Shown in pieces: positions 17,301-50,255 of a stretch of 64,000 nucleotides of DNA (position 1 is the stretch's first letter; the number at the start of each line of letters is the position of its first letter). Position numbers and translations under genes: made by a program. The DNA comes from Caenorhabditis elegans. Its lineage: Eukaryota; Nematoda; Chromadorea; Rhabditida; Rhabditidae. The notes under the pieces were generated by a model, which saw nothing but the letters and a program-made list of their open reading frames with translations, did not search any database and was not told where the DNA came from. The DNA is taken from contig NC_003282.8 in NCBI RefSeq assembly GCF_000002985.6, positions 7,192,001 to 7,256,000 on the forward strand. Reading direction: 5' to 3'.

Positions 17301-20300
17301 TGTGAGAATGCATACCTGACCACTACCTCTCGGAATATCTTCCGTATCGTATTCAATGAGTGTTTCCGTTCCAAATTTAGGTTTATAATACTTTCACATT
17401 CCGAACATAGCTTTCCAATTTTTTGTTGAAGTTTTCAGTTAATGTTTCATAGTAATTTTAGGTAGTTAGAATTCCAAATAAATTAAAAAATTATGCTATA
17501 CGTTTCGTAAATATTTCTAAGTTTTTAAGTGAACCGTTACCTAATCTAAACTTATTTTCCGGTGGCCTTCGGAAATTTAACAACAATGATTGTTATTACT
17601 CTCCGAAACTAATTGATAAGGTATCAAAAGAGTAATAAACAGAACTTTAAACTAAAATCAAAAACCTTTGGCATTCTCAATCTCTCTATCACTTCTACCT
17701 TGTGTTCAGATCCTTTCCAAAACATAACAGGTTTTTATGATAACAAGTACCTTTTACTATTTTTGAAAATGTCCATTGATAGTGATGACCTAATCATTAG
17801 TAATCGATAGAAGATCACAAGAATCAGTAAATCAGCATCAGTGATCAGATCAGAATACAAAAAATTGATATATTTTCAAACACCTCCACCATCTCTCACC
17901 TATTTTATTTTAAGAAGAGCTTCATCGTGGTGGCGCAATTTAGTGATGGACGACGACAAAACTGCGCCTGTGCAGTCTGATACTGTGATATCTCCCGAAA
18001 ATGCGTAAGTTCTTTCAAAGAATTTTATTCACTGCAGCATTGAAGTTCAAATAAATTTTACAGTGGAAATGGACTCGCCGACCATCATCGTAACATTTCA
18101 ACTGCCAGTGTTGGAGATAGTGAGTTATTTTTTACATTTAAAAGTGGAATAGATCCAGTGCAGAAATCTTTGAAAACTACGTCTATGGTGCCAAAATGAC
18201 CAAATATCTTAATAAAACGTTCCAATAATTTTTTGAAAAATTTTATTTGCAATCGAAAATGGACAACTCTCGAATTCCTGTAACAATTTGAGAAAACCAT
18301 TGCATTGTCCAATTTCTACAATATTTTAATATTTGAAACATAAGTGGACCAACACAAAATTAGGAATCATTTTTTGACGACTTTCAAAATGTGACGAAAA
18401 TAGAAACTTTTTTTAATTTTCAAAAAATCATATAAAATTTAGCAGAATTGTTTTTATTTTTTTACTACGATACTTGGTAATTGTGGTACCATGGTTTAAA
18501 GCCATTTTCCCACTGGCGCTACTCCGCCTTCAAACAATTTCGACATTTAATACCTAAACGTCATTAAAGTGTTCTTGGCGAGCATATAAAAATACATTAA
18601 AAACACGGTCGGAACATTAAAGCTGATAGGGGCGATGATTCAATTGTTTATATTTGCATGTACTTTTTCTCGATTTATATTCGTTTCAGTCAGTCTATCC
18701 AATCTATTTCTCATACTTTTTTGTTTCTTTTTTCAATCATCCTTGAGAAAAATGCATTTGCATCTCATACGTTAATGACCTTGAGCCGAAGAATGGGCAG
18801 CTGGCGCCACAAAAAGAGCAATTCTGTTGTGATGGTCTGTTGCGCACGGTCATTCCACTAAATTTGAATTAAGTCATGTCAATTGTCACAATTCCATCTG
18901 TTTCGAGTCACAATTTTTAAATTAAATTTGTCTGAACTTAAAAAGTATTAATTTCAAGTCGGTTACGGTCGTTGTGTATGTATGCCAATTGTTTTTTTCT
19001 TATAACCTAGTATGTACTTGATGAGTGCTTGATAAAATTCTCAAAAAAATATAAAAGCTTCGAAAATAACAAAACTAAACGTTTTTTTTTTTCCAAACTT
19101 GAGTCTAAACAATTTTTATTGGAACATCTCTTTAGTAACAGAAATCCATCCACTGAAACAGTGAAGTTTTTTTTTCAATTTTGAATAACACCACATCAAT
19201 AAAAGTCACAAATTCAGAAACGAAAATATCAGTGAGTATGTTCTGATAAAATGGGGAGTACTGTGCATTTAATTTTCCATTCCTAAAAATTTACAAGGGA
19301 TAGTTATGCAAAATGGTCCTGCCACTCATTCTGTTTTTGAGCGTTTATCTGAAAAATTTGTGTAGATCAAACGTAGATCACATTTAATTAAAAGAAAATC
19401 TATTTACAAAATCAGAGGAAAGTATATAGTGATCTACGCTTGATCTACTCAAATTTATTATTTTAACCCTCAAAATAAAGGATGAACGCGCGAAAATGAC
19501 ATTTGCATAATGGTTCCTGTCATAGAAGTAGAAAAACATAAAAATGTTTGTTTTTGTGTTTCAGTTTTCAGTGAGATCCCACGAGAAAAGAAAGTGCAAC
19601 GTAACAAGAGGAATCAGCAAGTGCGCCCCATTAATTATTATTGTTAAAACGCGCTAGGAGAGGTGTCGTGCGCATTGAGAAGTGTTGTGCACAGGCGGCC
19701 TCCGTTGAGTCTTGTACTGGAACACTGCCAAGTCTGTATATATCTCTCTTTTTTACAATCTTGTTATTCTGCCATTCTTTCTTTCAAACAAAACCGATGC
19801 TCTCTTCGCTCTTCACGTTTATTGTTAACATTTTGTTATTACCTAAAGGTTAATTGATAACATATATATTTTGCCACAGCTTTCCCTGACACTTTGTCAA
19901 CACTTACTGATATTTTTGCTTCCGAATTTGTGCCCCTTATTGATTTAGTTACAGAAACATTAAAATAAGTTGCAATATTATAGTGTTGCACGCTCTGCTG
20001 GGTTTTTGTTGCTAAAGAGGTGTTCCAATACATATTGTTTATACTCAAGTTTGAAAAAAAGTTTGTTATTTTCGGTGCTGTTATATTTTTGTTAACATTT
20101 TATCAAAAAACTAATTTAACCATCTAAGTGTGCAAACACCGCAGAATTTATTTGTCTAGAATTTTAAAAGTTGAAACTTTTATCCTAATTTTTTGAGCAA
20201 AATATCACTAATGTTAGTCCCATTTTTTGCGTGAAGTATTCTAATTTTGGAAGAGTTGGAAAAATAACCACATATTTACCCTTTATTAATATTTTTAGAG

Positions 20301-33415: not shown

Positions 33416-35164
33416 TTACTGTACCATTCGCTTCTTCATACACTCCACATGAACTGTTGAGTTATCAATAGAAACTTGTAGAAACCTGTCAGAAGAAATA
33501 GGAATTATAGCTTTTCCTACTGAGACCAATGTGGTACATCTGGCATCTTTAATCAGTTCATGTAAAGGAAATCGTTTTGGATCAGTGACATAGGCAACAA
33601 ATCGAGTTCCAACTGGCACTTTTTGTGCAATCCATTTCTGAAATTTTTCAAATTGGATTCCAGAAGTTTTTGTCTTATGTTTTAGTTATCGTATTCGTTT
33701 TAACTGTATTTGAATGGATTTGAATGTTAAACTGAAACCTGTATTCCATAATCTTTCAGGCAAGAATTTGGTAAGCACAAATAGATAAAGATAAATATTT
33801 CTTACCTTTATAATATAATTGACTCCGTTAAAAGTAATATCACACGATTCAATCTCAATATCCGTTGCGTTCGTAGTCATCAATACATCATCATTCAAAT
33901 CCGTTTTCCTCAGGATGTACAAAGTTGTGAGGTTTTTCAACTGGAAAATAAAAAAAGTGTTTGAATATATTGCCTTATTTAACAATGACAATTGTTTAAA
34001 GAAAAACACCCCACGGGTCCGGCAACGCGAGCAAACCTCAAAAGACGTAGCCGGGAGATGGAATGCACCTTGAGACGAGGGTACTGTACTTTTATTTACC
34101 ATATTTTCTCAATCAGTATCGCATACAAAACTAATAAGGAAAAATGGTGGCTTTTTATTTGTTGACTTAGTTCTAGTTAACTTTTTTAATATTTTAGAGA
34201 TCGTGGTGAGACCCACATAGAAAATTGAAGTGCCACGTTGTTTTAACTCTTGTGAGTGAGCCATGGCTCTTGTGAGTGAGCCAAGCCAGACATATTTACC
34301 TTTTTCAATGAATCAGCGATCGAGCTTTTTACTTCATCTGTGTAAACTGTAATACTCCGGAGATGTTTTGGATTCAAATGGACCAGCCACATCGGTAGAC
34401 TACTTTCGAATTCAATAATTTCGACGCCGATAGCCGACCGAAAATGTTTAAAATTCTCGACATTCAAACACTCGGAAGCTTGCAAAAAGTTGGAATTGAA
34501 CATGTGATTCGTCTTGAAAGAGTTGCAGATGACATTGTCCTTCAGAAAAGTTTCGCAGAAAATCTTCCGTGCCACGTCTTGGCAGTTAGATCTTTCAGTT
34601 GTTTCAATTTTTGTTCTTGACATCAATTTTTCGAAATTAACAGTGACTTCACCAGGAACAGATGATTCATATATTCGAATAACAATTCCATTGAATTCTA
34701 TTAAATAAGTTTCAATTAGTGAAGAATCTTCATGTGGTGTGTATGTTAAAGTAATTTCTTCATTGAATACAAGTACAGCTGATTCAGTCGCAGATTTCAT
34801 CTTTCTCGAGCATTTCTGCAGTGGTAGTCTGAACTATTTTGGTTTTGTTGGAACAGTCAATTATTATTTTGACGCAGAAAAATATCCTTTTCGAAATCGA
34901 CGCGGAAACGCGCTCCAAAATGCAACGCCCACGAACCATGGGTCTCGTTAGGTATTTGGCGGCAAAACGGGGAATTAAAACTTTTTCAATTAGTTTCGCC
35001 GATATTCATGCATTTTTTAACTTGCGTTTTCAGCTCGACCTTTCCACGCCGATTTCAAAAGCTGAATTTTTCTGCGTCTTTATAATAAAATCTTACCGTT
35101 CCATGAACGACAGATGCTTAACTACCTCATGCAGCATTTCTTGTGGAAGATTTTCGAGATTCAT
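33416..35164 (-). CDS. F-box protein (nematode F-box / FTH-like family)
   Basis: Four exons, high to low: 35097-35164, 34300-34828, 33806-33940 and 33416-33637, totalling 954 nt, 317 aa, all phases consistent. The first exon reads MNLENLPQEMLHEVVKHLSF and joins MERLPLQKCSRKMKSATES, a standard F-box (LPxEmlhxVxxxLsfxeRlxLqkcSr) that should bind SKP-1 in an SCF ubiquitin ligase. The rest (LPMWLVHLNPKHLRSITVY, TNATDIEIESCDITFNGVNY) looks like the beta/leucine-rich C-terminal substrate domain of worm F-box paralogues, usually called FTH/DUF38; I am less sure of that. The first intron carries a MITE-like insertion. It lies 317 bp downstream of the next minus-strand gene; an operon is possible but not shown. 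Confidence 0.85.
34871..35093. repeat. MITE-like foldback in F-box gene intron 1
   Basis: GACGCAGAAAAATATCC on the left is mirrored by GAATTTTTCTGCGTC on the right. The interior includes CCATGGGTCTCGTTAGGTAT, also found in the GST-gene intron near 48.77 and 49.03 kb. The element fills almost the whole intron. Confidence 0.6.
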
Positions 35165-44200: not shown

Positions 44201-45727
44201 AAAACCTTTTTAACCTTTTGAAAGCTTTAAAAGTTTAGAACAGAAAAAACATTTTTTTCTAATTGTGCATTTCGACGTGACGGTGTTTGCACAGCGCATA
44301 CCGTAGTCTTACAAATTTTCACAAATTGTTTTTGTCTGTTGAACAATTTCCTTTAATTTCCCTAAATTTTTACGATTTTCCGTGGTTTTAAAACTTGCTA
44401 TTGCGTAACATATCTTTTATCAGTCCTCCAAGTCTCCCAAAAATGGATTTTAGCTAGCGTAATAGCAAAAAGGCAGTGAGTGGCGGCGGTGGCGGGTGCG
44501 CGCACGCAATCCTCGGCACAAACGTGATCTTGCGCAAAAATCTGGTTATATAACACACCGTGTTTCATTTTTATCAATTGCCGGGAAGAGGATGAAGAGG
44601 ATAGAAGGAGGAGACGCTAAAAACCCCGTAATACACGAACGAGATCTTTCCTTCATTGACACTCTCTGCTTGTTTCGCTTGTTCTCACTTCTCCAAAACA
44701 TATTTTAGCCGTCCGGATTTTTTTGTTGCAAGTTTTCTTAATGCGTCAGTACAGCCGCGTTGTTTGGCAAAAATAATCTCTTTCAAATTCGTACAGTTTC
44801 TTCAATTTTCCTCCCGAGCAGGCGTGCGCGGCGATTGCCTACAAGTAATTCTACAAAATGAGCCAGTGTGGCATTTTCTCCCAGTATTTTTTAAAAATTA
44901 AAGTTTAGTGAAATTACACAGAAAAATGGTTGATTTATCTCAAAAAATGTATGAAATTTGGAGCCGGAAAAAGTTTCTTTAAGTTGTCGAATTTTTCTCA
45001 GGCAATTTCCAACTTTCAGACCATTTTTGACCGCTTTTCCAGTTCTTTCAACCTAAATAAAAGCTATTTTTTAGACTCCGAAAATATTTTTTCTCGTACT
45101 CTATCAGTAAATATTATTTAAAAATATTGAAGGAACATGCCACACTGGATCATTTTTTAAATAATTTTTACCAGAAACGTTCAGCCTGTGGCAATGTTCT
45201 TATTGTCCACACCTCTATTCCATCATCAATTCGTTTCGTTTCTTTTTGTCGCATTGTTTTGTCGCCTCCTTCTCTTTATCTTCTCTTGTCTCCCACCATG
45301 AATTCTTGTTCGCACACAAATTCCTTTTCTTTTATTTTCTAGAACGATGCAAAATAAAAAAGTGTATAAAACAATTACAAAGAACAACTTCTACATTTAT
45401 ACAACCCCGTTTTGTTCTTTTGTTTTGACCTTATGAAATCATTGCTAAAACTTGATATAAATTAATCATTTTGAGTTGTCATACCGTGATTTCTTCCAAG
45501 CTTCACGTCGTCATGGAAATTTTGAAAATTTTCCACCTGTCATTTCCTTTTTTTCTATTTTTCTCTCCACTCTCTAGCTCCACCTCTATCCTTCCTTATC
45601 GTAGTTACACAACTTTATATCATATAATTTTGGCGCACACCTTTGTCATTCGCTGAGCCCTATGTGTCACCTTTTTACTCACGAAACCTTAAAAATATTA
45701 CTTTATCTATTTTTATTTTTCAGAAAA
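41211..45727. promoter_or_regulatory. 4.5-kb upstream region of elo-3
   Basis: No gene supported. It includes CT-rich tracts (41500-41720, 43480-43660) that create long but low-complexity open frames, a short GC-rich island near 44480-44515, and a foldback at 44862-45153. An acceptor (TTTTTCAG) five bases before the elo-3 ATG implies trans-splicing or an unseen 5' UTR exon here. Confidence 0.4.
44862..45153. repeat. imperfect inverted repeat upstream of elo-3
   Basis: GAGCCAGTGTGGCATTTTCT on the left is mirrored by GAACATGCCACACTGGATC on the right; similarity continues inward (CAGTATTTTTTAAAAATT against AATATTATTTAAAAATATTG). Arms about 40 bp, interior about 210 bp. Likely a MITE. Confidence 0.6.
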
Positions 45728-47896
45728 ATGGCAAAATACGACTACAATCCGAAGTATGGGTTAGAAAATTACAGCATAGTGAGTATTTATTATCAAAAAA
45801 TTAAAAAAAAAACAATAAATATTTTCAGTTCCTTCCCTTTGAGACATCTTTTGATGCATTTCGATCGACAACATGGATGCAAAATCACTGGTATCAATCA
45901 ATTACAGCATCTGTCGTGTATGTAGCCGTCATTTTTACAGGAAAGAAGGTTTGTGTATACGCTTTTTTGATAGTTGCAGAAAAATTAGTTATAGTTAAAC
46001 TGATAAGAGTTTTAGCTAGGTGAGACGCTAGAAAAGTGACATGATAATGACAGAAAATGATGCTCCAAAAACAGTGAAACATAGGAAGTCACACCATATT
46101 TCCTGGAAATGTCTGTAGAAAATTATGTGTAGAAAAACAGTCGAAAACTACAATAGTGGTTAAAGAGAGAGTATTGACACTTCTCAAAAAAAAAAAAGAA
46201 TTTTTATGGCGTGTCAATTTCCGAAAAAGAGGCGCATTTTTCTAAAATCTGAAATGTGCTAAAAGAAACTAGTTAACGCGAGAATAATTACCAAAATATT
46301 CAATAAAAGTTATTACATCAATAAAAAACTGTTTCCCAGCTGCAGCGACAAGAAAAAGCTGGCAAAATTTCAAATTTTGGACTTTTTCGGAATTTTTGTC
46401 ATAAAAATTTTTAGAATTTTTTTTGAGAAGTCTCATCATGAATTCGGTAGTTTCTAACCAGTTTTTACTATAGAAAACACAACCTCTACTCCCAAAAACT
46501 GTGAATTCCGTTTCAGAAGCCTCCTAGGTGCGTTACATATTTTAAAGCATAACCGAAAATATATCGACATTAAAGTAATTGCTTAGCAGGTGGTTCTCAT
46601 CTACAAAAAATCACGAGTTATTACTTTTGAGTCTAGCCTTCAGAATGCAATTAAGAATCGAAACCGAAAATCACTTAATAGTTCTCAAATGTTTCAGATT
46701 ATGGAAAAGTACAAGCCCTTCCAACTGGACACACCACTCTTCGTCTGGAATTCATTTTTAGCCATTTTCTCAATTCTCGGGTTCCTCCGAATGACACCTG
46801 AATTTGTATGGAGTTGGTCAGCAGAAGGAAACTCATTCAAATATTCAATTTGTCATTCATCTTATGCTCAAGGAGTCACTGGTTTCTGGACTGAACAATT
46901 CGCAATGAGCAAACTTTTCGAGCTCATCGACACAATCTTCATCGTTCTTCGTAAACGTCCACTCATCTTCCTTCACTGGTATCATCATGTAACTGTTATG
47001 ATCTACACATGGCACGCGTACAAGGATCACACTGCATCAGGACGGTGGTTCATTTGGATGAATTATGGAGTTCATGCTCTTATGTATTCCTACTATGCTC
47101 TTCGTTCTCTGAAATTCCGTCTTCCAAAACAAATGGCAATGGTTGTTACTACTCTCCAACTTGCTCAAATGGTTATGGGAGTAATCATCGGAGTCACTGT
47201 CTACCGTATCAAGTCATCGGGTGAATACTGCCAACAGACATGGGACAATTTGGGATTATGCTTTGGAGTTTATTTCACATATTTCCTTCTTTTCGCCAAC
47301 TTCTTCTACCATGCATATGTTAAGAAAAACAACCGTTATACCGAAGTTAAGAAAGATAAGAAGGAAAAGGAAGAGGTGAGCATCTTTTAGGTACAGTAAA
47401 TTATGAAAATAATTCAAAAAATTTCCCCGATCTCGTTTTAATTTACCTGAGAAAAAAGGTTTCAAGAAAATCGAAAAATCGGCAATGTTCAGAAAATAAT
47501 TATAAAATTCAATTTTCATCAAATTTTGTTAATGTTGATGGAAAAAAACATAAGAAAACATATGAACTTATTCTTCCAAGAAGAAAAATGACCACAATTT
47601 TAACTTTTCTATTTGGAAAAAATCGAATTTTTTCGAAATATCAGAAAAATCGAAAAAACATTTCGATTGTTAGATTTCAGTAAAAAATGGAAAACCCGTT
47701 ACCCTTGCTGGGAAACTTGGAAAATTCTGACTTATGAGCATATTTTTAAAAAATCTTTGGAAAAAAATAATTCGTTTTTCAGCCTGTTGATTTCGAAATT
47801 CTGGAGCCAAAAGAAGATATCAATGCTAACATCGCTGAGCCATCCATCACAACGAGGTCCGCCGCCGCACGAAGAAAAGTTCAAAAAGCTGATTAG
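45728..47896 (+). CDS. elo-3: very-long-chain fatty acid elongase (ELO family)
   Basis: Condensing enzyme of the ER fatty acid elongation cycle, adding two carbons from malonyl-CoA to acyl-CoA. Exons 45728-45778, 45829-45948, 46698-47375 and 47783-47896; 963 nt, 320 aa, all phase 0. Hallmarks: ELIDTIFIVLRKRPLIFLHW, the catalytic histidine box HWYHHVTVM, and NYGVHALMYSYYAL, with about seven hydrophobic segments. The C-terminus is a basic/acidic cytosolic tail (KKDKKEKEE, then ITTRSAAARRKVQKAD). The start is just after a TTTTTCAG acceptor. Symbol rests on recall of the cap-1/elo-3 neighbourhood; the family is certain. Confidence 0.92.
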
Positions 47897-47923
47897 AAAA
47901 TATCAGATTGTTATTTGTTCTCT

Positions 47924-48141
47924 ATTACCGGTACAGAGAGTGTAGATAGTTAGAGAGTGACAGACATCCGGGACCTAATGGGGCGGGGCGCGCGGAAGAG
48001 ACGATTTGTGTCGATTTACGAAATAATGACAACGAGGAAAATTTCGTAAATCGACACAAATCGTCTCTTCCGCGCGCCCCGCCCCATTGGGTCCCGGATG
48101 TCTGTCACTCTCTAACTATCTACACTCTCTGTACCGGTAAT
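47924..48141. repeat. nearly perfect 101-bp inverted repeat
   Basis: Left arm 47924-48024 and right arm 48041-48141 are reverse complements over 101 bases with a single mismatch (CCTAAT against CCCAAT), separated by a 16-base loop (AATGACAACGAGGAAA). The arms begin ATTACCGGTACAGAGAG and contain a GC-rich core (GGGGCGGGGCGCGCGG), unlike the surroundings. The element begins 27 bases after the elo-3 stop and lies between convergent genes, so read-through RNA from either side would form a long hairpin. Confidence 0.95.
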
Positions 48142-48509
48142 ATTATTTTTCGTTTCTTGAAATTTCTCTTTTACTTTTTATCAAACCTTTACGCTTTCCC
48201 TTATTTATATTCGGCTAATCATCAGAGGCCACGCAAAACTAACACATACTCAGATCTCTCACCCTTCGTCCCCCCAACCAACCCCAAGTTTTCGTTAGCT
48301 TATGCTCTTTCTTTTTTGCTCCGTTTTTTTTCTGTAATTGCCGCAACAAATTGAAACTCGTGTGAAATAGATTAGTAGTCTTTTTGTTTCCACATTTTTT
48401 CCATCGTTTTCTGTATTTCTCTTGCCAACACAAAAGAAAGAATTAATTTTAATCGTTATTCTTTCTCAGATAAAATTCTAGACACTTTTTAGAATGCTAA
48501 TCTGACAAT

Positions 48510-50255
48510 TTATGCGTTCGGCTTCTTCTCTCTCATTGGACCCTTGAATGGCTCGGCAAGAAAATCGGCCACCTGTGGAAGGCGATCCGATCCGAAAACT
48601 GTTTGAAGTACTTTTCCGTGACCATCAGTGATATGCATCCACGGAGCTCCGAAACACTGAAAAAAATTAATTTTAATTCCCAATTGAGAATATTATAAAA
48701 CAGCAAAAAAACATTTTAAAACGACGCGCAAGCGCGCTCCGGGGCCAACTGAAAATGCTCCGCCCCTAAACCATGGGTCTCGTTAGGAATTTTGCGTTCG
48801 TCGTCTATTTTGTTATATTTTTCGTAGTTTTTGATGTTTTTTCGGTTGAAATAGATGAAATAAAATTATTATGATAAGTGAAAACGCCCTAAATTCACAT
48901 AATTTTCTTAGACATCATTTCGATGTTGAAATCATTAAACACTTCGAAAAATATAACAGAAAGACTAATTCTAGAAAATTGTCGAGCCTAATCAAAAACG
49001 TTCAAGTTTAACGGAAAATACCTAACGAGACCCATCGTTAGGGGGCGGACCGTTTTAAATTGGTTGTGGAGCGTGTTTTCTCGTCGATTCCGTGTTTTTC
49101 TGGGTTCCTATAATAAATGACCTACTCCATTCCCGATGGCTTCATCTGTGTTTTCTCTTAAAATGTTCTTAACTTCTGCCGAATCACTCATCATCACCAA
49201 CTCATCGACATCTTTTACATGCAAATCTCTCAAAACTTCGGCAACTTGACTTTTTGTGAAAATTGGTTTTCCGTATGCATAAAATCGATGCCAGAGTCCA
49301 CGAGCAACGTCTTCCATCAAAACATTATCACGGAGTTGTGAAGCGACAAGAATACGTTGTGGAACGATTGAACTTGTGTTCAACATCATATTTGTGTAGT
49401 CCTTGGGAAGACGGAACGGAATTCCCCAATATTGGGCAGAGAAGAGCAAATCTTTGTGCATGTACTTTTCTTTGATAGGAATACGGAGTGGGAGACCGGG
49501 GTTTTCTGAAAACTTGCAGTTATATGATTTAGAAGGTACATATCAAACAACTTTCTGATGATTAGCACGATTCGAAAAAAATTTTCAAAACAATTATGTT
49601 ATTTATCAATGCTCCTATACTTATAAAATTACCAAATATCACTTTTCCAAATGTCTCGAAATTGCTTTCAAATAGTCCTTTTAGGGACATTTGGCAACTT
49701 ATCAAAACGTTCACTGATCATTTTGAAAAATCCTGAAATTTTTGGATTGTCTTATTATGTTAATATATGTCATGTTCAACTATTATAATGTTGAACTATT
49801 GTTGAACTATTTAAGTGTATTTATCTATTCTAGTGCCCTTCGTCAGATTAAAGCAGATTTTAAGAAGTAGAAGTAGCCGACCTTATGATATAAATAGATA
49901 GAGGTGCATTTTTTAGAAAATAATAACATACAGGCTTCTTAAGGTTTTGCATGTCCTTTTCCAGAAGTAAATTGAAAGCTTTTATTTTGACATTTCAAAC
50001 GGAATTGTTAGAGGGTCATGGTTTAAAAACCTTACTTTAAAAAAGCTAATTCCATTTTTTTACGGATATTAGAGAAATTTCAAGACAAAAATACAAAAAC
50101 TCACCAGTATGTCTGACAACACCAGCAAAAAAGAATGGTTTCATCTGAATTGGAGTCTTCCAAACGGAACGATGACGAGTGATTCCTTCGAATCCAAAGT
50201 AACTGTACGGAGAAATGACATCGAAGAAGAATTTGACCACTTTTCGGTTCGGCAT
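48510..50255 (-). CDS. gstk-2: glutathione S-transferase, kappa class
   Basis: DsbA-like kappa-class GST, usually mitochondrial or peroxisomal, conjugating or reducing with glutathione. Exons, high to low: 50105-50255, 49126-49505 and 48510-48656; 678 nt, 225 aa, the typical family length. The N-terminus KVVKFFFDVISPYSYFGFEG carries the SPYS active-site serine region. Further family marks: FFFAGVVRHTENPGLPLRIP (substrate-loop), ALWHRFYAYGKPIFT-like helical insert, and GCFGAPWMHI, the cis-Pro/GAPW block. The ATG is 15 bases after a TTTTGCAG acceptor. I see no strong peroxisomal C-terminal signal: it ends KKPNA. Intron 1 (49506-50104) is plain; intron 2 carries a MITE. Confidence 0.9.
48720..49088. 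repeat. MITE-like inverted repeat in kappa GST intron
   Basis: Left arm (ACGACGCGCAAGCGCGCTCC to CCATGGGTCTCGTTAGG, 48720-48787) and right arm (CCTAACGAGACCCATCGTTAGG to GGAGCGTG, 49021-49080) pair imperfectly. The TGGGTCTCGTTAGG box also occurs in the F-box gene intron element. Confidence 0.65.

Follow-up and report, generated by a model that had tools for sequence, protein, structure and literature searches.

The PAL-type families of Repbase are palindromic MITEs of C. elegans that have TA targets. The hairpin described here comes from a C. elegans window of 64,000 nt (the whole stretch of DNA that was analyzed, C4:7192001-7256000), and it is like them in being a short, non-coding, near-complete palindrome with TA on both sides and dozens of copies. 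Like CERP2 and CELE2 (PMC9757741), it is a C. elegans MITE that adjoins genes; a feature of those two families, in the passages of that paper that concern them, is that they became co-opted germline promoters via motifs bound by HIM-17. Among the papers listed on PALTA and Caenorhabditis MITEs, titles and abstract openings reveal no such repeat family (PMC9757741 and PMC1562414 cover other MITEs), and the passages on repeats in PMC9071541 name none. For Sailor (DD82E), to which the probable mobiliser of the hairpin bears some likeness, passages of PMC8533490 report a spacer range of DD78E-DD111E and include an example from Caenorhabditis nigoni.

The hairpin lies between two convergent genes, which an earlier note on this DNA named elo-3 and a kappa-class GST gene. 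These identities hold at the domain level: the penultimate exon of the upstream gene gave a profile match to the ELO domain (E = 6e-66), and exon 49108-49461 of the downstream gene matched the DSBA domain (E = 3e-20), which fits a kappa-class GST. We take gstk-2 to be D2024.7. The equation of elo-3 with D2024.3 rests on the co-occurrence of both names in PMC3602672 and PMC514883, in which neither "gstk-2" nor "D2024.7" occurs. The features of the locus, in window coordinates, are as follows.

47783..47896, + strand: last exon of the ELO-domain gene (elo-3), with stop codon TAG at 47894-47896 and its start placed by the preceding AG
47923..47924, no strand: left TA target-site duplication, with TA on both sides in 36/36 end-to-end copies and variable bases outside
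47925..48024, + strand: left arm of the palindromic MITE, starting TTACCGGTACAG; T at 47976 is the sole arm mismatch
48025..48040, + strand: 16-nt loop, with A at 48025 where the 37-copy consensus has G, the only difference
48041..48140, - strand: right arm of the palindromic MITE, from the repeat search and the alignment
48141..48142, no strand: right TA target-site duplication, on the same basis as the left
48510..48656, - strand: last exon of the DSBA-domain (kappa-GST-like) gene, from the open reading frame list, its boundary placed by a splice-like AG

A repeat search found inverted-repeat arms at 47923-48024 and 48041-48142, each of 102 nt, which are 99% complementary with one mismatch and are spaced by the 16-nt loop. 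The near-perfect hairpin reported in the earlier note is thereby borne out, although its limits of 47924-48141 were one base short per side. If the outermost TA on each side is excluded, the element proper is 216 bp long (47925-48140), and 28 bases separate it from the elo-3 stop codon. It had also been described as GC-rich amid an AT-rich tract, and we found a G+C content of 50.5% in the element, compared to 33.6% in its flanks (47601-47900 and 48143-48500) and 34.8% in the whole window.

We compared the hairpin region to its own genome (100,286,401 bases in 7 contigs). This hunt for other copies of the arms, which the earlier note had proposed as a check, was decisive. There were at least 82 matches in about 40 places, with 40 of the 97 first-look candidates scored. 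As expected of a palindrome, each of these places gave a match on either strand; identities were 87-99%, self excluded, and most matches ended close to or exactly at two shared points, the edges of the hairpin. With up to 3 mismatches allowed, a core 31-mer matched the genome 77 times and its reversed control not once; these matches represent 44 loci, the elo-3 copy included. Altogether, we tabulated 45 copies: the elo-3 copy, 39 from the region search, and 5 from the core pattern. We aligned the 37 full-length copies and left out eight that are truncated or rearranged (L041, L043, L045, L046, and L048-L051). The consensus of the aligned copies starts with TATTACCGGTACAG and ends with CTGTACCGGTAATA, with 102/102 arm positions complementary. 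TA was present at both borders in all 36 copies for which the match spans the whole element, and the bases beyond it vary; TATA appears at the left border in one of the 36 and at the right border in four.

We identify the element as a palindromic MITE, 216 bp long, whose target duplication is TA. It is short and non-coding, and has terminal inverted repeats (102-nt arms, counting the TA). Its copies are many, dispersed (44 loci) and uniform in length, with the same ends (37 of the 45 tabulated are full-length). It has a target-site duplication, and its termini are common to a transposase-bearing element, L053. The earlier idea of a hairpin specific to elo-3 or to the GST gene is therefore not supported: because there are dozens of near-identical copies, the hairpin owes its symmetry to the transposon rather than to any demonstrated role in the neighboring genes. 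Because the same hairpin is present at dozens of other genomic sites, an assembly artefact is very unlikely. Near-perfect arms around a short loop are, as a matter of general knowledge, a typical leftover of local inverted duplication or template switching, either of which could have formed a palindrome in place at elo-3, but the occurrence of the same sequence, ends, and TA borders at dozens of other places speaks against this, and we give a local origin practically no credence. The elo-3 hairpin is almost certainly one recent insertion of this palindromic MITE, which is a non-autonomous DNA transposon.

What might have moved it? A 20-base end pattern of the MITE had 162 matches in the genome at up to 3 mismatches, compared to 1 for the reversed control, and among the matches listed there was one convergent pair 3.3 kb apart, on C4. 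This pair bounds L053 501-3793, a 3.3-kb element that is the probable mobiliser of the palindromic MITE, as judged from its ends and its coding frames. The inverted repeats of L053 are 419 bp long with 99.5% identity. The outer 82 bases of the MITE arms, with the TA, are 92.7% (left) and 93.9% (right) identical to this repeat; the inner 20 bases of the arm and the loop gave no alignment to it. Frames of 376, 112, and 71 codons lie between the repeats, with the transposase spread over at least two overlapping frames. The 112-codon frame narrowly passed the cut-off for Pfam DDE_3 (E = 1.2e-6, 28.9 bits against a cut-off of 28.6). The 376-codon frame scored below the DDE_3 cut-off (E = 0.003) and matched nothing in Pfam at a limit of E = 0.001; its matches in the genome were itself, at 100%, and one 31% relative, and no solved-structure relatives were found at E up to 1.

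By motif, Sailor appears to be the nearest described group. L053 encodes VIDNC and HCCLNPIEL, which resemble VIIMDNA and HCELNPIEL in Sailor as given in passages of PMC8533490, and its spacer from the second D to the E is long, at 89 codons if a 43-nt intron-like stretch is assumed to be skipped and 103.3 if it is not. In other respects the passages of PMC8533490 on target sites and termini describe something different: the target duplication of the MITE is TA, whereas that of Sailor is TATA; the L053 repeat begins with TT, whereas Sailor repeats usually begin with GT or CC; and the L053 repeats extend over 419 bp, compared to 23-57 bp in most Sailor species. Because neither the TA target nor the first bases of the repeat agree with the description of Sailor, we file the putative partner under IS630-Tc1-mariner only, a group recognized by a DDE/D transposase and a TA target; here these are represented by the 28.9-bit DDE_3 match in one frame and by the TA at the MITE borders. 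Another locus, L054, is 674 bp long with the same ends and is too small for a transposase; it is a deletion-type relative. The inner part of the long L053 repeat is also found on C2 and C6. Separately, a further inverted-repeat pair (L053 174-502 and 3938-4269; ~330 nt, 89%) flanks the transposase-bearing element, which sits as though inserted in a larger palindrome.

None of the 44 core-pattern loci is on C6, which is probably chromosome X. If insertion were uniform, the chance of this would be about 2e-4, a figure that uses a C6 size in keeping with the remainder of the genome total and concerns a pattern noticed post hoc. C6 does carry a more diverged copy of the MITE as well as the pieces of the long L053 repeat, and both speak against avoidance of this chromosome. 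As controls we examined other families in the window. A dispersed inverted-repeat element at 44852-45159 had 51 matches, with 5 places on C6 (31/31 candidates scored), while two families with overlapping match lists, at 48719-49089 and 34861-35088, had none on C6 among the matches listed (40/175 and 40/205 candidates scored). We draw no claim from the absence of core-pattern loci on C6. The element at 48719-49089 is a second inverted-repeat element, probably intronic in the GST-like gene, with 80-nt arms that are 78% complementary and have at least 107 genome matches among the candidates scored. Elsewhere in the window, 19029-20106 contains nested inverted-repeat blocks with arms of 45, 62, and 48 nt; taken together, they point to a ~1.1-kb element whose long inverted repeats are imperfect.

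The near identity of the hairpin arms had been taken to imply a recent origin or gene conversion, and the family alignment bears on both. The elo-3 copy differs from the family consensus at only two positions, one in an arm and one in the loop, and is among the least diverged of the 37; the insertion looks recent, and its high arm identity mainly reflects this. The arm mismatch (position 54, C>T, window 47976) is common to L009 and L015, and is therefore inherited or recurrent. Alternatively, conversion between the arms within each copy, rather than recency, could keep them alike. Some changes do occur in both arms: there are eight paired changes at seven positions, one of which (A>C at position 38) is found in paired form in 8/37 copies; L047 has six paired changes yet one arm mismatch; and the alignment, read by eye, has a one-base insertion in both arms of several copies. 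These paired changes show that MITE arms were symmetrised at times in source lineages. Changes confined to a single arm are far from rare, however, with 86 distinct ones among the 37 copies (44 in the right arm and 42 in the left), 73 of them private, a pattern that shows independent decay of the arms after insertion. The 13 that are common to at least two copies, two of them linked in L015, L027, L031, and L037, suggest that asymmetric copies probably transposed uncorrected. We thus regard within-copy conversion as a rather unlikely explanation for the likeness of the arms, and favor recent insertion for the elo-3 copy.

We also considered what the hairpin might do as RNA. The predicted fold of 47898-48200 has an energy of -212.9 kcal/mol, whereas 100 shuffled versions averaged -71.7 kcal/mol with an sd of 4.7, which puts the hairpin far outside chance expectation (z = -29.8). 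On the + strand an unbroken stem is predicted in which the arm mismatch becomes a G-U pair. The expectation that RNA through the hairpin would form a long duplex, here of about 100 bp, accordingly agrees with the predicted fold. An Rfam search of 47600-48600 with an E limit of 1 gave 13 matches; all scored below the gathering score, and 12 lay on the hairpin. Such matches are expected of any long perfect stem, and we rejected a microRNA precursor.

Whether transcripts enter the hairpin depends on where they end. A scan of the + strand from 47850 to 48560 for 11 poly(A)-signal words found only AATAAT at 48022 (in the loop), AACAAA at 48345, and GATAAA at 48469, with AATAAA absent; between the elo-3 stop and 48344, the AATAAT is the only such word. 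Because there are few of these words before or after the hairpin, elo-3 mRNA probably runs into or past it, which the scan suggests but does not prove. On the - strand, several variant words, such as ATTAAA at 48453, precede the element from the GST side, so the GST mRNA more probably ends before the hairpin. We note that at 48022-48027 the loop difference, private to the elo-3 copy among the 37 aligned, changes AATGAT to AATAAT, which is weakly poly(A)-signal-like.

A hairpin in the elo-3 3' UTR could have been co-opted, such that ADAR editing, nuclear retention, or Dicer cleavage tunes elo-3 mRNA. Its position just past the stop codon, the sparse poly(A) words upstream and downstream, and the strength of the predicted fold are all compatible with this, and in one study, as reported in passages of PMC4282642, over 98% of the editing regions identified in C. 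elegans contained inverted repeats, overlapped transposons, or both. The hairpin is nonetheless a generic MITE copy, two positions off the family consensus, and "elo-3" is absent from the main text of PMC4282642 and PMC5644944 and from the papers listed in a literature search; judged by titles and abstract openings, no listed paper is visibly on this hairpin element or on editing at elo-3. ADAR editing of this hairpin could plausibly occur as a passive effect, regulation of elo-3 by the hairpin is an open but weak possibility, and co-option strikes us as decidedly improbable. Still further from likely is a dsRNA network of the 44 loci, in which any transcribed hairpin, such as the elo-3 copy, would give rise to siRNAs matching all others and so couple host genes in trans, with ADAR editing gating entry into RNAi.

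We return to insertion of the MITE as the preferred reading. In this reading, two inverted terminal repeats with a 16-nt loop inserted as one element at a TA just 3' of the elo-3 stop codon, and copies would have moved in trans by cut-and-paste, through the L053 transposase or a close relative. The elo-3 copy is most likely neutral in its host. Transcripts of elo-3, if they read through, would contain a long double-stranded stem, which could make them passive substrates of ADARs or Dicer. Since the C. elegans genome is well catalogued, this palindromic MITE family is, we presume, very probably already listed, and the gain is therefore mainly one of clarification: a suspected gene-specific regulatory hairpin becomes a transposon insertion with its probable mobiliser located in the same genome, and the 37 aligned palindromes let arm decay be told from arm symmetrisation.
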